Positions 1 to 10,879 of a stretch of DNA of 10,879 nt are shown here, one piece after another. A program made the position numbers and the translations under genes. The notes beneath the pieces were generated by a model. It was not told where the DNA came from. It saw nothing but the letters and a program-made list of their open reading frames with translations, and ran no database searches. This stretch comes from Actinomycetota bacterium (GTDB lineage Bacteria; Actinomycetota; Thermoleophilia; Solirubrobacterales; Solirubrobacteraceae), in contig CAJCIJ010000078.1 in the NCBI GenBank assembly GCA_903970315.1, positions 1 through 10,879 on the forward strand. Reading direction: 5' to 3'. The stretch's first letter is position 1, and each line of letters starts with the position of its first letter.

Positions 1-1
1 A

Positions 2-262
2 TACGGCACCGACCTGACCAACTACCGCGGTTCGGGCCTGCGCAGGGCTGCGCGCGCCCTTCAGTACATGTTCGAGCTGGCACACATCAGCCCGCGGATC
101 AAGCGTCTGTACATCTACAACTGGACAGGAGCCAAGCCCCGCGAACTCTTTGACGCGGGACTGACCGACCCCCACGGCAAGCCGCGCCCCGGCTACGTGG
201 TGGTGTGCGACCACATCCTCCACAACAGCCGCAAGTGCGACGTCCACGTAAGCAGCCACTGA
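2..262 (+). CDS. C-terminal end of a probable glycoside-hydrolase-like protein (5' partial)
   Basis: The reading frame is open from base 2 to the TGA at 260-262, giving 86 residues; the start lies outside the window. The visible part has a helix-like stretch with FELAHISPRI, then RLYIYNWTGA, FDAGLTDPHGKPRPGY and a Cys-containing tail (CDHILHNSRKCDV). A hydrophobic strand ending in a Trp motif, followed by 'FDAGL-DP-G-PRP-Y', resembles the last strand and helix of TIM-barrel glycosidase-like secreted proteins of actinobacteria. That is recognition of style; no catalytic residue is in view. The two Cys near the end could form a disulfide in an exported protein. The next gene begins 16 nt downstream on the same strand, so the two may be co-transcribed, although no shared function is evident. 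The family assignment is tentative; the coding status is well supported. Confidence 0.6.
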   Translation, partial: YGTDLTNYRGSGLRRAARALQYMFELAHISPRIKRLYIYNWTGAKPRELFDAGLTDPHGKPRPGYVVVCDHILHNSRKCDVHVSSH

Positions 263-278
263 GCGAGCCGGCCGGAGC

Positions 279-1289
279 ATGAGAGCGGTCCAGATCGCCG
301 AGCTGACGGGGCCGGCCAGCGCGCTGCGCTTGGTCGACGTGCCCGCGCCGCAACTCTCCGATCCGCCCGTGGCGGGCGAGGGGGTGCTGATCGACGTGCA
401 CGCCGCCGGGGTTGCCTTCCCCGAGGTGCTCCAGACCCGTGGCGGCTACCAGATCAAGCCCGAGCTGCCGTTTATCCCTGGCAGCGAGGTGGCTGGGGTC
501 GTCCGCAGCGCAGCGCCGGAGGCATCGGTGTCGGCGGGCCAGCGCGTGATGGCCTTCTGCGGTCTGGGCGGGTTCGCCGAGGTGGCGGTGGCGCCGGCGC
601 ACCTGACATTCGCCCTGCCGGACTCCCTGGACTACGCCCAGGGTGCATCGTTGATCCTCAACTACCACACTGCGCACTTCTCGCTTGTGCGCCGCGGGCG
701 CGTGAGCGCGGGCGAGTGGGTGCTGGTTCATGGGGCCGCCGGAGGCGTGGGCACCGCTGCGCTCCAGGTGGCCTCGGCCCTGGGTGCGCGCACGATCGCG
801 GTGGTCTCCAGCCCCTCCAAGGCCACCGTGGCGACCGCTATGGGGGCCGAACACGTGCTGCTCTCCGACGGGCCATGGAAGGACCAGGCTCGCGAGCTGA
901 CAGGCGGCGGCGTGGATCTCGTCTTCGACCCAGTCGGCGGTGACCGCTTCACGGACTCGCTGCGCTCGCTGGCCCCGGAGGGTCGCCTGGTGGTCGTTGG
1001 CTTCGCGGGAGGCACAATCCCCGAGGTCAAGGTAAACCGCCTGCTTTTGGGCAACACCGAGGTCGTGGGCGCCGGCTGGGGTGCCTTCGCGGTCTCCCGA
1101 CCCGACGTGTGCGCCGAGATCGGCGACGCCCTGGACGGCATGATCGCAAGCGGTCATGTGCGCCCGCTGGTCGGCGAGCGGTTCCCGCTGGAGAGCGCCG
1201 CCAAGGCCTTGGGAGTTATCGACGAGCGCCGCGCCGTGGGCAAGGTGGTGCTCGACGTCGCCGACCCCGCCGGCCCCGCCGGCCCTTAG
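279..1289 (+). CDS. Zinc-independent NAD(P)H:quinone oxidoreductase-type MDR protein
   Basis: A 336-residue cytoplasmic oxidoreductase of the medium-chain dehydrogenase/reductase superfamily, at the family's usual length. The N-terminal GroES-like domain (about residues 1-125) includes IPGSEVAGVV at 66-75. The Rossmann domain has the nucleotide-binding glycine motif GAAGGVG at 152-158, followed by the usual TALQVASALGA helix. A C-terminal 'RRAVGKVVL' stretch at 318-326 closes the fold. The catalytic zinc ligands of alcohol dehydrogenases are absent, which points to the quinone oxidoreductase/zeta-crystallin branch: NAD(P)H-dependent reduction of quinones or activated double bonds. The real substrate cannot be read from sequence. 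The ATG at 279 matches the family's typical MRAVQ start, although the only SD-like run (GGAG, 274-277) sits unusually close. The end is a short Ala/Gly/Pro tail, and its TAG overlaps the stop codon of the opposing small gene by 4 bp. Glutamate is coded 16 GAG to 1 GAA, a useful baseline for the next operon. Confidence 0.93.
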   Translation: MRAVQIAELTGPASALRLVDVPAPQLSDPPVAGEGVLIDVHAAGVAFPEVLQTRGGYQIKPELPFIPGSEVAGVVRSAAPEASVSAGQRVMAFCGLGGFAEVAVAPAHLTFALPDSLDYAQGASLILNYHTAHFSLVRRGRVSAGEWVLVHGAAGGVGTAALQVASALGARTIAVVSSPSKATVATAMGAEHVLLSDGPWKDQARELTGGGVDLVFDPVGGDRFTDSLRSLAPEGRLVVVGFAGGTIPEVKVNRLLLGNTEVVGAGWGAFAVSRPDVCAEIGDALDGMIASGHVRPLVGERFPLESAAKALGVIDERRAVGKVVLDVADPAGPAGP

Positions 1290-1522
1290 CGGTCCTCCGG
1301 CTCGGCGCTGACCGACGCGTGCCCCATATGCCACTGGTGGCAGAACTCGCACCGGTAGACCGACAGGCGCTCGCGGCTGTGCAGCTGGGCTATGTAAGCC
1401 GCCTGGCGGGCCTCTGACTCCTCGGCGTAACGCTGCTTTGAGCCGCACGCGGCGGCCTTGCGCTGGGCAAACCACTGCTCGATGTCGCGGGGCATGCGCC
1501 CAGGGTGCCAGATGGCGCGCAA
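1286..1522 (-). CDS. Small Cys/His protein, putative zinc-binding (CxxC-x3-H type)
   Basis: A 78-residue protein when started at the TTG ending at 1522. The fold-defining part is Cys26-Gly-Ser-Lys-Gln-Arg-Tyr, a charged Ala-rich helix (about residues 33-50), then Y56-R-C58-E-F-C61-H-Q-W-H65-M-G-H68. One Cys ahead of a helix and a CxxC pair followed by WHxGH look like a compact zinc ribbon. The pattern 'C..K.-.Y....A...A......L..YRC..C..WH.GH' is one I know from many small actinobacterial hypothetical proteins, but no function is established to my knowledge. The start was chosen because a clean GGAGG lies 5 nt upstream. Alternatives are ATG at 1495 (69 aa, no SD) and GTG at 1582 (98 aa). The frame stays open to a TTG at 1675, so the N-terminus is uncertain. 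The gene converges on the MDR gene, sharing 4 bp at the stops. Confidence 0.72.
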   Translation of the reverse strand: MRAIWHPGRMPRDIEQWFAQRKAAACGSKQRYAEESEARQAAYIAQLHSRERLSVYRCEFCHQWHMGHASVSAEPEDR

Positions 1523-1527
1523 GACGC

Positions 1528-1532
1528 CCTCC
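1528..1532 (-). promoter_or_regulatory. Ribosome binding site deciding the start of the small Cys/His gene
   Basis: The minus strand reads GGAGG at these bases, inside a longer GGGGAGGG run, 5 nt before a TTG codon (1520-1522). It is the best SD sequence near any candidate start of this gene and favours the TTG over the in-frame ATG at 1495, which has none. Confidence 0.5.
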
Positions 1533-1705
1533 CCTGGGTGCTCCAGGGGCGGAAGCGCCCGCAGGGCGGACCCAGGCGGCACGCTCCCGAAGGCCCGCCC
1601 AGATGGGCTCCCAACGGCGCCATAAGCCCACGGCTGCTGGGCAATTGTCCGTTTAGAGGCCACAACACGATTCAAGGCGCGGGCAGGAGCAGCCGACTAA
1701 CTGGA

Positions 1706-1740
1706 GACGGCGCAGTCGTGACGCCGCGGTCGGCGCCGTC
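1706..1740. repeat. 8-bp inverted repeat (hairpin) upstream of the pseudopilin operon
   Basis: GACGGCGC at 1706-1713 is the exact reverse complement of GCGCCGTC at 1733-1740, with a 19-nt loop. It lies about 130 bp before the likely first start codon of the pseudopilin operon. There is no T-run, so it is not a typical terminator. It could be a 5'-leader structure or a protein-binding site, or chance in GC-rich DNA. Confidence 0.3.
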
Positions 1741-1871
1741 CGCGTACCGCCATGAGACACCGAACCGCTCCAAGCAAGCACCAGGGCCCGTCCCGCCCGG
1801 GTCGCAGCTGCACGACGCCTGCCGCCGGGCGAGCGCGATTGGCGAGACGGCTATTGGCGGGCCGAGCCACA

Positions 1872-3269
1872 GTGCTCAGGCAGCTCGTACCAGAGCGCGG
1901 GGACACGCTGATTGAGGTCCTGATCGCAGCCTTCGTGCTGGCGCTGATCGTGGGGGCGACCTTTACCGGCCTGGAGGGAAGCACGCGCGCAGCGGCACTC
2001 GGCCGCGCCCGCTCCCAAGCCCAGGCGCTGGCAGAACAGGACGAGGAGCGCCTGCGCGGCGACTCCATTCAGGCCCTTGTCACCCTCTCGGAAGCCTCGA
2101 CGGGGGAAAGCCGTACGGTCACAGAGAACGGCACCAAGTTCACGATCACCTCCACCGTGAAGGCAAAGGAAGAAGAAACGTCGGTCAGCTGCACCTCGGG
2201 AACGCCTTCGGTCAACGACTTCCTGACGGTCTCCGAAGTCGAATGGCGCCCATCGCCGCCGCACGAAGAAAAGATCAAGGAGTCCTCGCTGATCGCCAGG
2301 CCTCCCGGGGTCAACCTGATCGTGCAGATCAACGGCGCCGCGGGCACCGGCGTGGCCGGCATGTCGGTGACGTCAACGCAGAAGAGCACCGGCAAGAGCG
2401 AAACGGGCGCGACCGATGCGTCGGGATGCAAGCTGTTCACGTCGACCCTTGAAGGCGGCACCTACGACATCAACGTAGCCCAGACCAACTACGTAGACCA
2501 GAACTGGTACCGGGAACTGAAGGAAGACCCCAAGGCCCAGACGGAACGCAACCTGGTGTCCGGTGTCACCACGCGCGCATCGTTCGAATTCGAAAAGGCG
2601 GGCCAGCTAGCGGTCAAGCTGCTCACCGGCGACAGCACCGAACTCGGCATCAGCAGCAGCTGGCCGGGCCAGGCCCTGAACGTGCTGGCTTCGGAATCGT
2701 CGCACATGAACCCCACCTACAGGACACTCCGGATCAGCAACAACGAACCGCGGACCGAATTCTCCTCAGTCGAAGAACAGGCGGGAGTGTTCCCGCGCAC
2801 CTACACGGTCTACCCGGGCGGCTGCACCGGCAACAGCCCGGCCTTGTACGGCTCGACCGCATCCACAGCCACGGTCACCGCCGGCAACACCACGACAGCG
2901 ACGCTGACCGAGCAGGCGCTCGTGGTTGACGTCTACAAGGGCACCTCAACCAGCACAGAACTGCTCACCACCGAAGAGCCGAAGGTAGTCATCAAGGAAA
3001 AGACGACGGCCGGCGAAGGATGCACGGAACGCACCTTTGACCCGACGACGTTGCCCTTCAAACCCCCCACCGAACCCACTGAATACCCGACCGCGGCGCG
3101 CGGTGCCCTGCGCTTCCCGGGACTGCCCTTCGGCAAGTACTCGGTCTGTCTGGAACACGCCGGCATGCACTACCGCCGCAGCGCCGACGAAACCGAACTG
3201 GGCGGAGGCACCAAGGCTGCGAAGGTCAAGCTCTACTGGGGCGAAGCCACCGAATCCGGGAGTTGTTGA
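1872..3269 (+). CDS. Prepilin-type protein with long surface region (PilV-like minor pseudopilin)
   Basis: Begins with a type IV prepilin signal: a short basic leader ending ...PERG, the cut site G10|D11, then DTLIEVLIA with the conserved Glu at mature position 5, and a hydrophobic helix to about residue 32. An Asp at mature position 1 is common in actinobacterial prepilins of the GDTLIEV type. The body (465 residues in all) is far longer than a usual minor pilin. Residues ~144-212 look like a carboxypeptidase-regulatory/CnaB-like beta-sandwich ('GVAGMSVTSTQ...TDASGCKLF...GGTYDINV'). Two further Thr/Ser-rich beta regions follow at ~229-340 and ~349-465, the last with 'RFPGLPFGKYSVCLEH'. Six or so Cys suggest disulfides outside the cell. 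The likely role is a tip or priming subunit of a type IV pilus or pseudopilus, processed by prepilin peptidase. The GTG at 1872 gives a normal 10-residue leader; the frame is open to ATG 1752. First gene of a coupled operon; Glu is mostly GAA. Confidence 0.82.
   Translation: MLRQLVPERGDTLIEVLIAAFVLALIVGATFTGLEGSTRAAALGRARSQAQALAEQDEERLRGDSIQALVTLSEASTGESRTVTENGTKFTITSTVKAKEEETSVSCTSGTPSVNDFLTVSEVEWRPSPPHEEKIKESSLIARPPGVNLIVQINGAAGTGVAGMSVTSTQKSTGKSETGATDASGCKLFTSTLEGGTYDINVAQTNYVDQNWYRELKEDPKAQTERNLVSGVTTRASFEFEKAGQLAVKLLTGDSTELGISSSWPGQALNVLASESSHMNPTYRTLRISNNEPRTEFSSVEEQAGVFPRTYTVYPGGCTGNSPALYGSTASTATVTAGNTTTATLTEQALVVDVYKGTSTSTELLTTEEPKVVIKEKTTAGEGCTERTFDPTTLPFKPPTEPTEYPTAARGALRFPGLPFGKYSVCLEHAGMHYRRSADETELGGGTKAAKVKLYWGEATESGSC
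3258..3262 (+). promoter_or_regulatory. Ribosome binding site of the second pseudopilin gene, inside the first
   Basis: GGGAG lies within the last codons of the upstream gene, 6 nt before the ATG at 3269. It decides between that ATG and two in-frame TTG codons just upstream (3263 and 3266). The ATG overlaps the upstream TGA as TGATG, a layout typical of translational coupling. Confidence 0.6.
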
Positions 3270-4024
3270 TGCCTCGTCTTGGTAGCCAGCGTGGCTTCAC
3301 CCTGATCGAACTGCTCGTCTCGATGGCGATCGGCTCGATTATTTCGCTCACGGCGGTCGGCCTGATTGTCACCACCCGCAACAGCGGCAATCGCATCAAC
3401 GAACAGATCCACATTGACCAGACGGCGCGCGTGGCGATGGAGAACCTGATGCGCAACCTCCACTCGGCATGCGTGGTTCCGGAAAAGCCACCCGTTCAGT
3501 CTGGCAGCACCGAATCGACCCTCAGGTTCATCTCGGCCACGGGCCAGGAAGCTGCCGTGACCCCAGTGCTTCACGAAGTCCTGTTCACCGCGTCCAAGGA
3601 AGAACTGAAGGAAAAGCTGTATGAAACCAACACGGGGAGCACATACGGCGAATGGACCTTCAAGACCTCGCCGGCGACCGAACGACAGCTCGCCACCGGG
3701 ATTCAGGCAATCACCGAAAAGCAAGGGGCCACGGAACGACACGTGCCTGTCTTCCGTTACTACGAGTACTACCAGGAAAACACCAGCACACACGTAAACC
3801 CGCATCCCGGGGAACTTGAAACCGAATACCTTGCGGCCAGTGGAAGCGGCCTGAACACGGAACTGGCCGAAAACGTCTCCAAGGTCACCGTGGCATTCCG
3901 CGCCGCTCCGATCGCCGCCGGGCACCAGCCCGAGCCCAAGGCCACAGTGCTCGAAGACACCGCGCTCTACCGCCTGACCCCGACTTCGGTCGAGGAATCG
4001 GCCTCGCCGGAACCATGCGCATGA
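3269..4024 (+). CDS. Prepilin-type protein, PilW-like minor pseudopilin
   Basis: A 251-residue protein with a textbook type IV prepilin N-terminus: leader MPRLGSQR, cut site G9|F10, then FTLIELLVSMAIGSIIS, with Glu14 at mature position 5 and a hydrophobic helix to about residue 33. After the helix comes 'QTARVAMENLMRNLHSA', the amphipathic segment seen in PilW/GspJ-like minor pilins. The rest is a Thr/Glu/Ser-rich globular domain without a recognised fold; it has a YYEYYQEN stretch near the middle and ends in ...PEPCA. It should be inserted in the membrane, cleaved and N-methylated by prepilin peptidase, then built into a pilus or pseudopilus tip with its neighbours. The ATG overlaps the previous stop by 1 nt and the TGA overlaps the next start by 4 nt. 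Glutamate codons number 23 GAA to 4 GAG, the reverse of the MDR gene. Confidence 0.9.
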   Translation: MPRLGSQRGFTLIELLVSMAIGSIISLTAVGLIVTTRNSGNRINEQIHIDQTARVAMENLMRNLHSACVVPEKPPVQSGSTESTLRFISATGQEAAVTPVLHEVLFTASKEELKEKLYETNTGSTYGEWTFKTSPATERQLATGIQAITEKQGATERHVPVFRYYEYYQENTSTHVNPHPGELETEYLAASGSGLNTELAENVSKVTVAFRAAPIAAGHQPEPKATVLEDTALYRLTPTSVEESASPEPCA

Positions 4025-5757
4025 CCGCCCCCGCAAGTCAAGGCCCGGAGCGCCCGCGCGCGCGCAGCGAGGCGGGCTTCACGTTGATCCTCGTGCTGGG
4101 GGTCATGTTCGTGGTATCGGTGCTGATCGCGGCATCGGTCGTGGGCGCTGTGGGCGAGATTAACCTCTCGCGCACCGCCACATCGCAGAAGAAGGCCTAC
4201 TACGCTGCGCAGGCGGGGATCGGGGACTACCTGTTCCACCTCGATGAGGACGGCGATTACCTCACCCACTGCACCTCGCCCACGCCTGCCAACGCGGCGC
4301 TGAACAACTACTACAAGTCCAGCTCCTCAAACGTACCGCTCAGGGCCACAGAACTGACCAAGGCGAAGGTGCCGGAATCCTCCGAAGAGGAATACGCGAT
4401 CCAGTTGCTGCCGTCAAGGAGTGCCGAAGCGCGCGGTGAATACCAGTGCAACCAGGAAAAGGTCGCCGAAACGATGATCGAAGAATCCGAACCGGTGGCG
4501 GGCACGTTCCGGATCAAGGCGACAGGCTTCTCGGGCCACGAGAAGGCCTCCATCGTGGCCACGTTCAAAAACGAAGGGTTCCTGGCGTTCGCCTGGTATT
4601 CGGTCTACGAAGCGACCGATCCCGCGTTCTATAGGGGCTACAAGACCGAAACCGAACTGTCCAACTGCGAAGGGTACTGGCCGGAACGCTACGAAAAGGG
4701 GTGCACGATCTCTCACCAGATCTACAAGGCCTCCGACAGCGTTCACGGGCCGATCCACAGTGAGGATCACGCCGAGATCTGTGGCTCGCCGACGCTGGGA
4801 CGGACCAAGACCGACAAGGTTGAATTTGGCCACTACGGAGTGGCCGCAGAAGGCACCGAAGAAGCTAGCCTGGGCTACAGCAAGGAGACCCAGAGTTGCA
4901 CCAACGAACTGACGATGAACGGGACATACGTCCCCGTGGCCAACGTGGCGTCGATTCAGCCGCCTCCCAGCGACGCCGAACTGGCATCCCTGGTGGAAAC
5001 CGAATACGAGTTTCACGACAAGACCCAGATCACCCTGGCTGGCTCGACGCTGGAAATCACCGAGCACCCCCACTGGAACTCGGCATCGCTGACTGAACGG
5101 GAAAAGACCGAACGCGTCGTCAAGGCCTGGCCGGCAACCGGCGTCATCTACGTGGCCAACAACTCCTGCACCGAAGCCTACCAACCGTTTATCGTGGAAT
5201 ACACCGAACCCACAGAATGCGGCAATCTGTGGGTGCACGGGACCTATTCCAAGTCGCTCACGATTGCGGCCGAAAACGATGTGGTCGTCAATGGGAACAT
5301 CAACGACTCCACCGAAGTCTCGGGCAAGCCGGCCGGAAGTGCCCTCTTTGGCATGATCGCTGACAAGTTCGTCCGCGTCTACCACCCGGTGCTGTCGGGG
5401 TACGTCGACGAACCCCTCGCCAACAACTGCACGCGGCCCGCAGTCAATCCGATGACGGAAATCACCATCGATGCATCCATCCTGGCCCTGAACGGCTCGT
5501 TCGACCTGGACAACGTGCTGTGCCAGCGCGAATACCCAGAGAACAACCTCAACGTCTATGGTGCGATCGCCCAGCTCTACCGCGGCCCGGTCAGCGTGAG
5601 CGCCTGCGGCGGCACCACCTGTACGTTCGTCTCGGGCTACCACAAGAACTACAACTACGACGAACGGCTCCGCGCGGGCGAGCCGCCGCACTTCCTGAAC
5701 CCCGTCCGCGCCGCCTGGCAGATCCAGCGCGAGACCAACGCTACGGCGCCGTCCTAG
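4021..5757 (+). CDS. PilX-like pseudopilin with conserved C-terminal surface domain
   Basis: A 578-residue protein, third in the operon. The leader (MTAPASQGPERPRARSEAG) is followed by G19|F20-T-L-I-L and a long hydrophobic helix, then 'QKKAYYAAQAGIGDYLFHL', the signature of PilX N-termini. Mature position 5 is Leu24 instead of Glu, as often in PilX-type proteins, which assemble next to a Glu5-bearing partner. The C-terminal third has a repeating beta pattern ('SLTIAAENDVVVNGNIN'), then FVRVYHPV near residue 450, LNVYGAIAQLYRGPV near 511 and GYHKNYNYDERL near 540. I know this set from the DUF4900-like C-terminus of large PilX-like proteins; it probably forms a beta-solenoid exposed at the surface. 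ATG 4021 makes an ATGA overlap with the upstream stop and has GGAA 8 nt upstream; ATG 4015 is an alternative. Glutamate is GAG in the N-terminal pilin part and mostly GAA in the body. Confidence 0.87.
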   Translation: MTAPASQGPERPRARSEAGFTLILVLGVMFVVSVLIAASVVGAVGEINLSRTATSQKKAYYAAQAGIGDYLFHLDEDGDYLTHCTSPTPANAALNNYYKSSSSNVPLRATELTKAKVPESSEEEYAIQLLPSRSAEARGEYQCNQEKVAETMIEESEPVAGTFRIKATGFSGHEKASIVATFKNEGFLAFAWYSVYEATDPAFYRGYKTETELSNCEGYWPERYEKGCTISHQIYKASDSVHGPIHSEDHAEICGSPTLGRTKTDKVEFGHYGVAAEGTEEASLGYSKETQSCTNELTMNGTYVPVANVASIQPPPSDAELASLVETEYEFHDKTQITLAGSTLEITEHPHWNSASLTEREKTERVVKAWPATGVIYVANNSCTEAYQPFIVEYTEPTECGNLWVHGTYSKSLTIAAENDVVVNGNINDSTEVSGKPAGSALFGMIADKFVRVYHPVLSGYVDEPLANNCTRPAVNPMTEITIDASILALNGSFDLDNVLCQREYPENNLNVYGAIAQLYRGPVSVSACGGTTCTFVSGYHKNYNYDERLRAGEPPHFLNPVRAAWQIQRETNATAPS

Positions 5758-5759
5758 CG

Positions 5760-5812
5760 CCAAAAAGCCCGTCCGTATCGGCTCCCCGCGCTTCAGTGCC
5801 GATGCTTTTTGG
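5760..5812. terminator. Compound inverted repeat between pseudopilin operon and GGDEF gene; possible terminator or attenuator
   Basis: CCAAAAAGC at 5760-5768 is the exact reverse complement of GCTTTTTGG at 5804-5812. Nested inside, ATCGGC at 5777-5782 pairs exactly with GCCGAT at 5798-5803 around a 15-nt loop, leaving an 8-nt bulge on the left side. The hairpin starts 3 nt after the TAG of the PilX-like gene and ends 15 nt before the ATG of the GGDEF gene. The five T's lie inside the stem and no U-tail follows, so this is not a standard intrinsic terminator. It may partly end the operon transcript or mask the start of the next gene. A second GCCGAT at 5813-5818 offers alternative pairing. Confidence 0.45.
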
Positions 5813-5827
5813 GCCGATTCTGTAGGT

Positions 5828-8047
5828 ATGGGTATAGGGGAATTCCTGTGCCGCGACGACACTGAGCGCCGCCGCATCACCGAACTCGGGCGCTCCATCC
5901 GTCCGGGCGCGCCGTTCATGCTTGCCCTGTTCATGGTCGCAGGGCTGGCCGGCACGCCGGCCTATGGCTGGCTGCCCCTGCTGCCCCCCGCCCTGGCGTT
6001 CGCCGCCTATGGCGTGATGTGGGTGATCAACCCGCCGCGCAGAGAGCGACCGGAGCTCTTGGTGGCCAGCGCACTGGTGTTCGCCGAGGCGATGATGACA
6101 ACCTCGCTTGCGATTGCGCGCGGGCCACGAGGCTATGGGCTGGTGATCCTCACCATGCCCGTGCTGCTGGCGGCGCTCGTATTCCCCAAGCGTGTGGTGA
6201 TCGCCTCGATGGCGATCGGCGCCGCGACGATGTCCGCAGTGCTCCTCACCACGGACATCGGCGAGGTGCGCCACACCCCTCCCGTGGCCTTCGTGAGCAT
6301 CTTCGTGCTCTGCTCGCTGGCAGTCACCGCGTATGTCATTCGCGGCCTCGACGACGCGTCCAGGCGGTCGGCTTTCCTGGACGAGCTGACCGGCGCGCTC
6401 AACCGCGCTGCCCTGACCCCGAAGCTCGCCGAGCTGTCCTACAGGGCCTCGTTGACCAACGAACCGGTCGCCGTGATCGTCGCGGACATCGACCACTTCA
6501 AGGACATCAACGACGCCCGCGGCCATGCCCACGGCGACGCCGTTCTGCGCGAGATCGTGCGCCGCCTGAACATGTGCAGCGGCGCCGAGCCCATCTACCG
6601 ACTGGGCGGCGATGAGTTCGTCGTCTTGCTGCCAGGGCTAAACGCCGCCGCGGCGTATGACCTGGCCGTCGGCATGTGTCACGCGATCGCCACGGCGCCG
6701 GTAGATGGCACGACCGTGACCATGTCCTTCGGCGTGGCCGCCTCGCTGATGCGCGGTCCGTTTGACTTCGACGCCTGCTTCGCACGCGCCGACGCCGCCC
6801 TGTACGCGGCAAAGCGCGAGGGACGCGATCGCGTCCACGTGGCGCCGCACGATGCGCAAGGGGTGCCGCAGGACGCACAAGCGGTGCGCGACCGCGCCGA
6901 CCGGGCGGCGAGCGGCCCTGCGGGCCAGGGGCACCCGAGCGCGGGCCAGGGGCACCCGAGCGCCGACCAGCAGACGGTCACAGACGAGCTTGAGCGCGAG
7001 TTCACGATCGACATGAACCGGCGCCTGATGCTGCTATCGCTGCCGCTGGTCCTGGGTGCGACGATCGTGATTGTGGCGAGCGCGCCGTGGTTTGGCTGGC
7101 ACACGCTCATCGGGCCGGCCGTGGGCGCCATCCCGTACTACCTGCTCTCCTGGGATGCACACCGGTTCCGTCGTCCAAGCCGTGCGCTGTTTGCCGGCTG
7201 GGCCATCTTCCAGACTGCTATCGCGGCCGGGTTTGTCGCCGCCTACGGCGCCCCCCTGTTCGCTTTGCCCCTGTTTGTGCTGCTGGTACCCGGCGGCTGT
7301 GCGGTGTTCAGGAGCAGGCGCACCACCGCGCTGGGGGTCGGCTACACGGCGCTGTTGATGACCGCTGTGTCCTTCGGGCTCCAGGCCCATCGGGTGCTTG
7401 ACAACCCCGCCGTGCTGCTGTTCCCGCTGGCGTTGCTGTGCGAGGCCGCATACGTGGGCGCCGCGGTGGGCCGCTCGGCTGTGGCCTTCCGAGGCGCGGG
7501 GATCGTGGACGAGCTGACAGGCCTACTGAACCGCACTGCGCTTGGCACGCGCCTGATCGAGCTTGAGTCGCAGGCCACCGACACCCCCCGGCGGGTGGCC
7601 ATCGTGCTCGCCGACCTTGACCGTTTCAAACAGCTCAACGACTCCCACGGCCACAGCTGCGGCGACGAGGTGCTGCGGGCGGTATCGGACCGCATCCACG
7701 GCTCGCTGCGAAGCTTCGACTCCGCCTACCGGCTGGGCGGCGAGGAGTTTCTGTTGCTCCTCCCCGACGCCGACCTCCGCGCAGCGCGCCAGGTGGCCGA
7801 GCGGCTGCGCGTGGCGGTGGGGTCCCAGCCCTGCGGCGAACAGACCGTATCGATCTCGCTCGGAGTCGCAGTCACCGCACCGGGCAAGCCATTTGACTAC
7901 ACCGACATCTTCGGCCGCGCCGACAAGGCCCTCTACAACGCCAAGCGCGCCGGGCGCGACCGCGTGTGGGTTGACGAGGGGTCTCTGCCGGCCGTCGCGC
8001 CCGCCGACCACAGCGGCGACCGTCGGGCAGTGACGCACTCCGCGTAG
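5828..8047 (+). CDS. Double diguanylate cyclase, 6TM-GGDEF-6TM-GGDEF membrane protein
   Basis: A 739-residue protein made of two similar modules. Module 1: six predicted membrane helices (~29-46, 51-67, 77-97, 103-120, 123-141, 151-171), then a GGDEF domain (~180-338) with DIDHFKDIND at 220-229, GH..GD at 232-237 and GGDEF at 260-264. Module 2: helices from ~400 to 548, then GGDEF (~559-715) with DLDRFKQLND at 596-605 and GGEEF at 637-641. Both domains keep the metal-binding Asp/Glu residues and GTP-contact Asn/Asp, so both should make c-di-GMP from two GTP. An RxxD inhibitory site (R628-S-F-D631) sits 5 residues before GGEEF in module 2; the equivalent in module 1 is SGAE, so it is missing there. 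Linker ~339-383 is low-complexity and holds a 21-bp tandem repeat. No EAL or HD-GYP domain is present. The start has no good SD. Glutamate codons are mostly GAG. Confidence 0.93.
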   Translation: MGIGEFLCRDDTERRRITELGRSIRPGAPFMLALFMVAGLAGTPAYGWLPLLPPALAFAAYGVMWVINPPRRERPELLVASALVFAEAMMTTSLAIARGPRGYGLVILTMPVLLAALVFPKRVVIASMAIGAATMSAVLLTTDIGEVRHTPPVAFVSIFVLCSLAVTAYVIRGLDDASRRSAFLDELTGALNRAALTPKLAELSYRASLTNEPVAVIVADIDHFKDINDARGHAHGDAVLREIVRRLNMCSGAEPIYRLGGDEFVVLLPGLNAAAAYDLAVGMCHAIATAPVDGTTVTMSFGVAASLMRGPFDFDACFARADAALYAAKREGRDRVHVAPHDAQGVPQDAQAVRDRADRAASGPAGQGHPSAGQGHPSADQQTVTDELEREFTIDMNRRLMLLSLPLVLGATIVIVASAPWFGWHTLIGPAVGAIPYYLLSWDAHRFRRPSRALFAGWAIFQTAIAAGFVAAYGAPLFALPLFVLLVPGGCAVFRSRRTTALGVGYTALLMTAVSFGLQAHRVLDNPAVLLFPLALLCEAAYVGAAVGRSAVAFRGAGIVDELTGLLNRTALGTRLIELESQATDTPRRVAIVLADLDRFKQLNDSHGHSCGDEVLRAVSDRIHGSLRSFDSAYRLGGEEFLLLLPDADLRAARQVAERLRVAVGSQPCGEQTVSISLGVAVTAPGKPFDYTDIFGRADKALYNAKRAGRDRVWVDEGSLPAVAPADHSGDRRAVTHSA
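6920..6961 (+). repeat. Perfect 21-bp tandem duplication in the GGDEF protein linker
   Basis: Bases 6920-6940 and 6941-6961 are identical. The unit is in frame and yields GQGHPSA twice in the linker between the first GGDEF domain and the second membrane module (about residues 365-379). Its perfection implies recent slippage or selection for linker length. The paralogue at 8832-10879 has a different, longer Ala/Pro/Gly-rich linker without this repeat. Confidence 0.9.
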
Positions 8048-8135
8048 GGGGCGATGTCCCACCCCACCGCGGCTCGGCGGAGCAGGGGCTTACGACCCCA
8101 ACGCGCTGAACGGCGGGGCAGCGGCCACCCGCAGC

Positions 8136-8141
8136 TACTCT
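8136..8141 (+). promoter_or_regulatory. Candidate -10 element for a leaderless Uma2 transcript
   Basis: TACTCT fits the actinobacterial TANNNT -10 pattern and ends 6 nt before the ATG at 8148. No Shine-Dalgarno sequence precedes that ATG. Transcription from this element would begin at or next to the A of the start codon. No convincing -35 hexamer was found. The idea is inferred from spacing. Confidence 0.35.
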
Positions 8142-8147
8142 TGGCAC

Positions 8148-8666
8148 ATGGCAACGGTTGTGCTCGACCCCCAGCCTCCGGAGATCGCCGCGCTGATCGC
8201 GCGGCGGCAGAAGCTGGACCTCGATCGTTTAGACGAGATGTGGGAGGGCGTCTACCACATGAATCCCGCGCCACACAGCCGACACGCACGCATCGTGCAG
8301 CAGCTCGCCGAGCTGATCGGGGAGCCGGCCCGCGCTGCCGGCCTGGTCCCGGTCATGAGCGTGTTCAACCTGGGTGTCGCCGACGACTACCGGGTGCCCG
8401 ACGGCGGCGTGCTGCGTCCCGGCCCCGATGCGGCCTACCATCCCACGGCTGCAATCGCCGTTGAGATCCTCTCACCGGGCGATGAGACCTGGGAGAAGCT
8501 GCCGTTCTACGCGGCGCACGACGTCGACGAGCTCCTGATCGTCGATCCCGAGACCCGAGCCATCCGCTGGATGGCGCTGGACGGCGGGGCCTACAGTGAT
8601 GTTCAGACCAGCGCGCTGCTCGCGCTTGGTCCCGCCGAGCTGACCACGAAGATCGACTGGCCGTAA
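8148..8666 (+). CDS. Uma2 (DUF820) family putative endonuclease-fold protein
   Basis: A 172-residue protein, typical length for the Uma2 family, which has a PD-(D/E)XK nuclease-like fold. Visible motifs in order: the N-terminal 'LDEMWEGVYHMNPAPHSRHARIVQQLAELI' region (residues ~28-57), DYRVPDGG with the candidate acidic residue D85, AVEILSPGDETWEK with E106 and K117 as the remaining catalytic candidates, and DELLIVDPE at 127-135 just before the C-terminal strands. The family is widespread in cyanobacteria and actinobacteria; nuclease activity is predicted from the fold and cellular function is unknown, although the domain is often found near mobile or accessory DNA. No partner gene is adjacent. 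It stands between two convergent double-GGDEF paralogues, 100 bp after the first and followed by an apparent gene remnant. Start chosen as the family-typical MATVV. Confidence 0.88.
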   Translation: MATVVLDPQPPEIAALIARRQKLDLDRLDEMWEGVYHMNPAPHSRHARIVQQLAELIGEPARAAGLVPVMSVFNLGVADDYRVPDGGVLRPGPDAAYHPTAAIAVEILSPGDETWEKLPFYAAHDVDELLIVDPETRAIRWMALDGGAYSDVQTSALLALGPAELTTKIDWP

Positions 8667-8668
8667 AA

Positions 8669-8761
8669 GCGCGACGGCGCGCGGGGCGCTACACGTTGGA
8701 GCTCACGGCCGGCAGCGGCAAGACCAAGCAGACAACCAGCCAGCCGATCACGGTCGCCTAG
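8669..8761 (+). pseudogene. Probable remnant: 3' end of an Ig-like-domain protein gene
   Basis: Directly after the Uma2 stop, frame 2 reads RRRAGRYTLELTAGSGKTKQ, then TTSQPITVA and a TAG at 8759-8761. 'AGRYTLELTA-G----S-PITV-stop' strongly resembles the last two beta strands of bacterial Ig-like or fibronectin-like domains ending secreted actinobacterial proteins ('GxYTLTLTA...SxPVTVTxxV'). No start codon with an SD or upstream domain exists; going further upstream, the frame runs antiphase through the Uma2 gene. I read it as the surviving tail of a gene cut off by insertion or rearrangement. At 31 codons, chance cannot be excluded. Confidence 0.4.
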
Positions 8762-8787
8762 ACGATCAAGGTCGGTTGACGGCCGCG

Positions 8788-8801
8788 ATCGTGGCCACGA
8801 T
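8788..8801. repeat. Perfect 14-bp palindrome between convergent genes
   Basis: ATCGTGGCCACGAT is its own reverse complement. It lies 31 bp beyond the stop of the minus-strand GGDEF gene and about 120 bp beyond the Uma2 stop. It could be an operator or a small hairpin. About one such palindrome is expected by chance in a window this long, so position is the only argument for it. Confidence 0.25.
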
Positions 8802-8831
8802 GGATCGACAGGCCACGTCGGGGACGCTGAA

Positions 8832-10879
8832 CTACGCCCAAGCGGCGTGGACAGCGGCGCGCGAGGAGGCCGACACCGGCCAGGTGCCGGGCCGCTGCTG
8901 ATCGACGCAGACCCTGTCACGGCCGGCTCGCTTGGCCTCATAGAGGGCGCTGTCGGCCCTGCCAAAGACCTCGCCGTAGACAAACCGCGCACCGGGCTTT
9001 GAGACGGCCACCCCGACGGAGATGGTCACCTCGCTGTGGCCGGCGAGCTTTGAGCGCACCGCCTGGCGCAGCCGCTCGGCGACCTGCTTGGCGGCGTCGG
9101 CGTCGGCGTCTGGCAACAGCAGCAGGAACTCCTCACCGCCCACTCGGTATGCCGAGTCAAAGCCGCGCAGCGAGGTTCGGATGCACTCGGCGACCTCCCT
9201 TAGTACCAGGTCTCCGGCAGTATGCCCGTAGCGGTCGTTTACCGCCTTGAAGTGATCGAGGTCTGCGAGCACCACAGCGACGGGCCGTGGCGTCCCGCTT
9301 GCCGCCTGCGCCTCAAGCTCGATCAGGCGAGTGCCCAGCGCGGTTCGGTTGAGCAGTCCCGTGAGCTCATCGACGATGCCGGCGCCGCGCGATGCCATCG
9401 CCGAGCGACCGACGATTGCACCCGCGTAGCCGGCCTCGACCAGCAGCGCCAGGGGAAACAGCAGCTCGGCCGGGTTGTGCGCCACGCGGGCCGCGTCCAG
9501 CCAGAGGGCCACCGCGGTCATCAGCAGCGCCGTGTACACCGTACCCAGGGCCGCGGCGCGGGTGCTGCGTAGCACGGCGCAACGGCCCGGCACCATCTGT
9601 ACGAGCACAGCGAGCGCAAACAGAGGTGCGCCGTGCGAGCAGGCAAAGCCCACCGCAATTGAGGTCTGGAAGATCCCCCAGCCCGCAAACAGCGCGCGGC
9701 TGGGACGGCGAAAACGACGTGCGTGGCGTGAGATCAGGTAGTAGGGCACCGCCCCGATCGCCGGCGCTATCAGCGGGTGCCATCCGAACGACGGGATGGC
9801 GGTGGAGGCGCCGATGAAGGCGCACACCGCAATCACCCGAAACAGCGTCCTCAGTCGCCCGTTGAGGTCGAGCACGAATTCACGCTCCAGCTCGTCTGTG
9901 ACCGAGCCGTTGCTGGCGCTGTCGTGATCGGGGCCGCCGTGCGTCCAGCCGGCCGCCAGCGAGCGGGTATCGATCGCCGGTAGTAGTCGCAGGGTCCGCT
10001 GTGGAGATTGCGCGCCGGCGGGCGCGCCGGCCCCCGCCGCCGGCTGGGACTCCGCGCCCCCGTGCACCTCGGAGACGCCAGTGCGACGGAGCTGCGGCGC
10101 CGGCGCGGCGACGTCCAGCTCAGATGCCACATGCACACGATCGCGACCACGTCGCTTGGCCTCATAGAGGGCGTGATCGGCGCTGGCAAAGACTGCGTCA
10201 AAGTCAAATGGCTCGCGTATGTGCGATGCCGCCACGCCGAAGGAGACCGTGGCGCGCAGGCCATCCACGGGCCAGTGGCGGACCGCGCGCCACAGCTGCG
10301 CCGCCACCTCCTTTGCCGCGTCGGCGTCAAGACCGGGAAGGAGCACGATGAACTCCTCGCCTCCCAGCCTGTAGACGGGCTCGGCCGAGCTCACGCAGGC
10401 GCTCAGCCGGCGTGCGATCTCGTGCAGGACGGCGTCGCCCTTGACGTGCCCGTGCTGGTCGTTGATCTCCTTGAAGTGGTCGATGTCGGCGACGATCACG
10501 GCCACCGGCTCGCCGCTCATCCGTGCCCGGTGGGTCAGTTCGGCCACCTTGGGCGCCAGCGCCGCGCGGTTCAGAACGCCGGTCAGCTCGTCCACGAACG
10601 CGGTGCGGTGCGATGCATCGTCGAGGTCACGGATGACAAGCGCTGTGACCGCCAGGGTCACGAGCACGCACAGCGACGACACGGCAACTGCGGGGATGTG
10701 GCGCACCTCGGGCATATCCACGGCGACCAGCACGACCACGAGCAGCAGGACCCCGATCGCGATGGCAGCGATGGCCACGCGCTTCGGGAAGATGAGCGCT
10801 GCGATCAGCACCGGCAGCGAGAGCAGCTCCAGCGAGTAACCGCGCGGCCCCCTACCCAGCAGCAGGGCCACCGCCATCA
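8832..10879 (-). CDS. Second double diguanylate cyclase, paralogue of the one at 5828-8047 (5' partial)
   Basis: At least 682 residues; the N-terminus is beyond the right edge. The ATG at 10875-10877 is not the true start: it aligns with an internal Met (M90) of the paralogue, so two to three membrane helices are missing. Counting from that Met, the remaining helices of module 1 end at ~82, and GGDEF domain 1 (~91-250) has DIDHFKEIND at 131-140 and GGEEF at 172-176. An Ala/Pro/Gly-rich linker (~252-325) follows, then six helices (~345-492) and GGDEF domain 2 (~502-658) with DLDHFKAVND at 539-548 and GGEEF at 580-584. RxxD (R571-G-F-D574) is present only before the second GGEEF; the first has SSAE there. 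All four catalytic-site motifs per domain are intact, so both should synthesise c-di-GMP. It converges on Uma2 and the other double cyclase. The short tail after CVDQQ is unlike its paralogue's. Confidence 0.93.
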   Translation of the reverse strand, partial: MAVALLLGRGPRGYSLELLSLPVLIAALIFPKRVAIAAIAIGVLLLVVVLVAVDMPEVRHIPAVAVSSLCVLVTLAVTALVIRDLDDASHRTAFVDELTGVLNRAALAPKVAELTHRARMSGEPVAVIVADIDHFKEINDQHGHVKGDAVLHEIARRLSACVSSAEPVYRLGGEEFIVLLPGLDADAAKEVAAQLWRAVRHWPVDGLRATVSFGVAASHIREPFDFDAVFASADHALYEAKRRGRDRVHVASELDVAAPAPQLRRTGVSEVHGGAESQPAAGAGAPAGAQSPQRTLRLLPAIDTRSLAAGWTHGGPDHDSASNGSVTDELEREFVLDLNGRLRTLFRVIAVCAFIGASTAIPSFGWHPLIAPAIGAVPYYLISRHARRFRRPSRALFAGWGIFQTSIAVGFACSHGAPLFALAVLVQMVPGRCAVLRSTRAAALGTVYTALLMTAVALWLDAARVAHNPAELLFPLALLVEAGYAGAIVGRSAMASRGAGIVDELTGLLNRTALGTRLIELEAQAASGTPRPVAVVLADLDHFKAVNDRYGHTAGDLVLREVAECIRTSLRGFDSAYRVGGEEFLLLLPDADADAAKQVAERLRQAVRSKLAGHSEVTISVGVAVSKPGARFVYGEVFGRADSALYEAKRAGRDRVCVDQQRPGTWPVSASSRAAVHAAWA

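Follow-up and report, generated by a model that had tools for sequence, protein, structure and literature searches.

Mammalian membrane adenylyl cyclases (mAC) are described in excerpts of two articles as pseudo-heterodimers that arose by duplication and fusion of a bacterial precursor with six transmembrane helices (6TM) (PMC9552081, PMC11606603), and one of these excerpts places the duplication probably in the early eukaryotic cell (PMC9552081). Two bacterial proteins are homodimers of chains with one such membrane unit each: Cya (Rv1625c), presented in an extract of PMC9433096 as a homodimer of 6TM-class III adenylyl cyclase (AC) chains, and ImcA of Pseudomonas aeruginosa, a 6TM-GGDEF homodimer solved by cryo-electron microscopy (8wcn) according to part of PMC10904736. 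The use of two six-helix mAC anchors is called a "blind spot" in the title of PMC12414865, and a response of these anchors to lipids is reported in PMC11606603. Here we describe a tandem diguanylate cyclase gene of the order 6TM-GGDEF-linker-6TM-GGDEF. It lies in a stretch of 10,879 nucleotides (the window, i.e. the whole DNA analysed: contig CAJCIJ010000078.1, positions 1 to 10,879, assembly GCA_903970315.1) from an actinomycetotal bacterium of the Solirubrobacteraceae. We hold it to be rather probable that its product is a membrane diguanylate cyclase of the pseudo-heterodimeric kind in a single chain, with cis-paired GGDEF domains, two sensors and one-sided feedback.

A protein homologue search at E <= 1e-30 found 236 homologues, and the counts given below rest on the 120 that were listed; their source names include Solirubrobacteraceae and Thermoleophilum, and their identity to the window protein ranges from 38 to 66%. 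An earlier reading of this DNA from its letters (hereafter the sequence-only reading) had proposed a database search for the 6TM-GGDEF-6TM-GGDEF order, and two GGDEF domains were indeed present in all 120 of the 236 homologues that were listed. This constancy, together with a tandem open reading frame (ORF) in a genome that consists of a single contig (G037), excludes an assembly fault. As a rough baseline, 80 generic GGDEF loci from a scan of genome contigs were used, 76 of which yielded an ORF, and none of their 87 GGDEF ORFs had two GGDEF domains; the profile for this count came from the tandem cyclase family and the loci extend 3 kb from the match, so that a second domain could be missed.

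The layout given in the sequence-only reading was borne out by two Pfam matches (two PF00990 stretches, protein E 2.1e-74, curated cut-off 23.8 bits) and by two hydropathy regions with six peaks each; six peaks also stand ahead of each GGDEF domain in the mean profile of 121 aligned sequences. The features, with positions in the window, are as follows:

5828 to 8047, forward strand: tandem diguanylate cyclase gene, 6TM-GGDEF-linker-6TM-GGDEF, ATG start, open frame, 739 amino acids (aa).
5906 to 6340, forward strand: six-helix membrane block 1, residues 27-171, hydropathy peaks at 38, 56, 88, 111, 132 and 161, helices in the model.
6371 to 6832, forward strand: GGDEF domain 1, Pfam match with 118.2 bits.
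6578 to 6589, forward strand: inhibitory site (I-site) position of domain 1, reading SGAE, no RxxD.
6605 to 6619, forward strand: GGDEF motif of domain 1, residues 260-264.
6848 to 6982, forward strand: variable cytoplasmic linker, residues 341-385, conservation 0.37, the lowest among the parts compared; model confidence (pLDDT) 44-59 in the blocks of residues 341-380.
6983 to 7024, forward strand: conserved segment preceding membrane block 2, DELEREFTIDMNRR, conservation 0.69.
7025 to 7468, forward strand: six-helix membrane block 2, residues 400-547, peaks at 411, 432, 462, 485, 508 and 536.
7505 to 7963, forward strand: GGDEF domain 2, Pfam match with 138.8 bits.
7709 to 7720, forward strand: I-site of domain 2, RSFD, residues 628-631.
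7736 to 7750, forward strand: GGEEF motif of domain 2, residues 637-641.
8832 to 10877, reverse strand: second tandem cyclase, 681 aa visible, convergent with the first; GGDEF domain 1 at 10137-10601 and domain 2 at 8913-9374.

Individual counts gave 5-7 peaks before domain 1 in 111/120 homologues (six of the nine outside this range have a short N end) and 5-6 hydrophobic peaks between the domains in 112/120. The content of lysine and arginine is 0.25 in the inside loops versus 0.044 in the outside loops, as assigned by eye, which puts the N terminus into the cytoplasm together with the two GGDEF domains and supports a topology with both catalytic domains on one side of the membrane. The linker, said to be flexible, fits this description by its variable length (56-110 aa, median 79) and its low AlphaFold2 confidence.

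In the window protein, neither domain lacks the metal Asp, the guanine-pocket residues Asn and Asp, the phosphate Lys or the GG(D/E)EF motif, the residue roles being those known from work on PleD. Among the homologues, the metal Asp, the guanine Asn and Asp, the GG and both acidic positions in GG(D/E)E occur without exception in domain 1 (120/120) and in domain 2 (120/120), the phosphate Lys in 120/120 and 119/120, respectively, and the F of the FK motif in 107/120 and 119/120; overall conservation is 0.67 in either domain. By its domain scores and complete predicted catalytic residues, the window protein is a predicted member of the diguanylate cyclase (GGDEF) class. The statement that both GGDEF domains are intact stands for the catalytic residues and falls for feedback, as domain 1 has no I-site.

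This loss of the I-site, confined to domain 1, is the sharpest difference between the two domains and was absent from the sequence-only reading. With the I-site Arg read nine residues back from GG and RxxD expected five residues before GG(D/E)EF, the Arg was present in 2/120 first domains versus 120/120 second domains, and strict RxxD in 0/120 versus 33/120; among the 162 GGDEF columns compared, none separates the domains more than the Arg column, which has a total variation of 0.98, against 0.77 for the column ranked second and a median of 0.22. RSFD in domain 2 of the window protein aligned to RQSD in the structure 3ign, whose title names a GGDEF domain in complex with cyclic di-GMP (c-di-GMP), and the second copy in the window reads SSAE in domain 1 and RGFD in domain 2. 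Lone half-unit relatives with 4-6 peaks before their GGDEF domain have the Arg in 20/20 and RxxD in 16/20 cases; 21 single-GGDEF ORFs were compared here, including L045 (743 aa, no membrane helices before GGDEF), and the frame-split L057 was set aside. The window's own genome also holds a lone TM-GGDEF gene (L062:674-2185 on contig C116 of G000, reverse strand) with an intact RAFD I-site. A candidate inhibitory site split between a primary site in domain 2 and a secondary Arg in domain 1 was rejected as not general, this Arg being found in only 4/120 first domains. The residue concerned lies 14 before the metal Asp, presumably corresponds to R313 of PleD, and is Arg in domain 1 of the window pair, P0001, P0003, P0004 and P0009, all six of which have strict RxxD in domain 2.

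The two halves share their origin. In a tree of 74 half-units, the first domains form a clade (100/99), as do the second domains (100/99), and the two clades are joined (100/99), with 20 lone units outside; an earlier quick tree with 109 rows agrees (domain 1 97, domain 2 99, joined 94). The larger tree includes 30 of the 120 listed proteins and the smaller one 11 of them, while L169 (truncated second domain), L172, L174-L176, L178 and L179 are in neither. Membrane blocks 1 and 2 are homologous as well (hhalign E 5.4e-40 over 163 columns, 20% identity), and this homology together with the tree indicates a duplication of the whole 6TM-GGDEF unit. Recruitment of domain 2 from a lone unit, which would make it no sister of domain 1, was not rejected (p_AU 0.185), although the best tree joins the two domains at the support given above. 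Genus g17 (family f4, same order) has separate TM-GGDEF-TM-GGDEF proteins with 4-6 peaks per membrane block; given that a single clade of all first domains was rejected (p_AU 4e-57), these tandems arose separately. They resemble the family of the window protein in having a membrane block before each GGDEF domain and in the same I-site bias, with RxxD in 2/11 first versus 9/11 second domains (Fisher p 0.009, ignoring shared descent; L169 with its truncated second domain is among the 11), and differ from it in origin. Two other tandems differ, as L172 has RRQD in both domains and L178 has GTRG and RHEG.

Tandem ORFs were read in the related genomes G005, G002, G037, G017, G033 and G040, and three further full-length tandem copies occur in the window's own genome (contigs C374, C183 and C267). 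Neither these copies nor the second cyclase of the window were noticed in the sequence-only reading. That second gene runs into the contig end, which removes its 5' end. Membrane block 2 on its own was found in 53/201 genomes of the order versus 3/296 of the phylum, the own genome being counted in both, and is thus mostly lineage-bound at the sensitivity used. G005 has a pair of tandem cyclase genes in succession (L046:540-5246). In G040, a tandem frame is split into two open frames of 305 and 653 aa (L057:296-2784), which appears to be a frame shift or a sequencing error, and this sequence falls inside the domain 1 clade of the 109-row tree. In G033, two lone 6TM-GGDEF genes adjoin head to tail (L061:484-2771, reverse strand), so that what is fused elsewhere is here spread over two genes, and the 74-row tree places this pair outside the tandem clade.

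AlphaFold2 predicted compact single-chain folds for the window protein and a distant member, with predicted TM-scores (pTM) of 0.87 and 0.81. To that extent the models favour the built-in dimer proposed by the sequence-only reading, in which the two active sites would pair. In Foldseek, the model of the window protein matched human AC5, AC8 and AC9 end to end, and its 12-helix part overlays AC9 with 4.4 Å over 367 residues; the second model, that of the distant member, matched AC8 and AC9 end to end. The mAC isoforms AC1-AC9 share with the window protein the order 6TM-catalytic-6TM-catalytic in one chain, obtained by duplication and fusion, and AC9 shares the 12-helix arrangement. They differ in having class III cyclase domains and cyclic AMP as product, and, according to an excerpt of PMC9552081, in that no isoform shows sequence similarity between its TM1 and its TM2, whereas the two blocks of the window protein are similar. 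Unlike in mAC, both catalytic sites of the window protein look complete. No class III cyclase family was among its Pfam matches at E <= 0.001; with GGDEF as the catalytic domains, the protein is mAC-like in layout and not a member of the mAC. A profile of 55 membrane blocks found no AC among PDB sequences at E <= 10, where its single match was Phospholipid phosphatase 3 (E 9.8), and the MASE-type sensor MASE11 (PF20969) gave only weak matches, to 6/55 membrane blocks (best E 0.0037). ImcA, with a six-helix membrane domain followed by GGDEF, is a solved counterpart of one half-unit as far as layout goes; in contrast to the window protein, it has one unit per chain and hence identical dimer halves. 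It ranked 35th in Foldseek for the second model (362 columns, root-mean-square deviation (rmsd) 10.3 Å) and was not among the best 50 matches listed for the window protein model. Rv1625c/Cya holds the role for AC that the lone 6TM-GGDEF proteins hold for the tandem family, a likeness by description, and differs in being a single class III unit.

We propose that the gene arose when a 6TM-GGDEF unit was copied and the two copies were joined in one frame. The two six-helix bundles would assemble into a single 12-helix body within the membrane, and the last helix of each bundle would continue into its own GGDEF domain. The two GGDEF domains would then meet within the chain to form a catalytic dimer that takes up two GTP and releases c-di-GMP. 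Each bundle would act as a sensor, and a single active dimer would be governed by a pair of diverged inputs; since the membrane blocks are diverged duplicates, two non-identical putative sensors are likely. The sequence-only reading had suggested that such a dimer could compare two different inputs. Product feedback would be one-sided, via domain 2, as the I-site Arg is retained in domain 2 alone. Several observations weigh against this proposal. The Arg that follows the phosphate Lys, a second phosphate contact, is present in only 105/120 first and 104/120 second domains. The I-sites of domain 2 are mostly RxxE (84/120; RxxQ in 3/120), which leaves the strength of feedback uncertain, and the Arg of domain 2 is lost (SALE, HALE) in two of four further tandem ORFs (L174-L176 and L179, all four absent from the trees). 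Whole-chain matches to AC have low TM-scores (0.30-0.33) at an rmsd of about 28-30 Å, so that agreement with AC is limited to the order of parts and the membrane part, and membrane-only AC9 chains were not among the best 50 matches listed for the second model. AlphaFold2 may, moreover, place the halves by homodimer signals. Finally, one copy in G033 (L051:2569-4818), adjoining an intact tandem gene, has degenerate GGDEF motifs; it could serve as a non-catalytic partner.

The main rival to pairing within the chain is an ordinary dimer of two chains, in which each domain pairs with its equivalent in the other chain (domain 1 to 1', domain 2 to 2') or the pairs form crosswise, and the covalent link has no other effect than twice the output or a more stable assembly. 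We regard this as a less probable but serious alternative, given that lone half-unit relatives exist, that each half alone looks complete and that ImcA, with the same layout as one half, is a homodimer in the extract of PMC10904736; the high single-chain pTM for four modules argues against it, and an I-site lost on one side only would fit two unlike partners better than like pairs. That loss could also be taken to mean that GTP binding by domain 1 is regulatory and catalysis is left to domain 2, with pairing between chains, and an excerpt of PMC7825114 provides a parallel in GGDEF-EAL proteins, where GTP on the GGDEF domain rearranges the partner domain. With catalytic residues kept in all 120 first domains and conservation equal to that of domain 2, we consider a purely regulatory domain 1 improbable. 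A recent tandem duplication that drifts without special function might be suggested by the several paralogues per genome and the one degenerate copy, and is very hard to reconcile with a family as deep as indicated by its range of identities and with both catalytic sites kept in 120/120 homologues. We retain the cis-paired single-chain enzyme as our preferred explanation. The tandem cyclase is a real, conserved and probably functional variant of the membrane diguanylate cyclases, all evidence being computational.

Three successive prepilin/pseudopilin-like ORFs lie directly upstream of the cyclase gene (1752-5757, forward strand), with an N_methyl Pfam match on the ORF at 3263-4024 and the other two judged by eye, and a Uma2-family ORF (PF05685, putative restriction endonuclease; 8148-8666, forward strand) is located between the two convergent cyclase genes. 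For one orthologous pair among the loci read, on C183 and G005:C11, the upstream genes are nearly identical in their C-terminal sequence. Conserved neighbours, i.e. the pilin-like cluster and the upstream gene of C183/G005:C11, were considered as a functional clue and given no weight. Rfam gave no match in the whole window at E <= 1, a hairpin before the start codon was no stronger than in shuffles (z -0.28), and a simple scan of 5600-8900 revealed neither sigma-70 promoters nor terminators.

Domain databases list GGDEF pairs. No active single-chain GGDEF pair was described in the titles and abstract openings found by searches of open-licence PubMed Central (PMC) papers, and a subscription paper or a full text may contain one; the matching PMC passages, as far as these extracts go, concern GGDEF-EAL proteins or general GGDEF-GGDEF contacts and pairing, and PMC5588039 matched by chance phrase. 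It is quite possible, though somewhat less likely than not, that the family is a c-di-GMP counterpart of mAC that arose by bacterial duplication and fusion at least twice, with feedback in one half and two diverged receptors jointly setting one catalytic pair. It presents the mAC layout in a bacterial family and with a different catalytic domain, with halves that are still recognisable copies and lone units that survive alongside. Therefore, the tandem family makes it testable why a cyclase is joined into one chain, be it for unlike inputs, fixed stoichiometry or feedback in one half. For c-di-GMP research, a natural linked dimer would allow each half-site and the I-site to be altered singly. 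If the proposal is true, the AC-like 12-helix body would represent a design of general use for membrane cyclases with two inputs.
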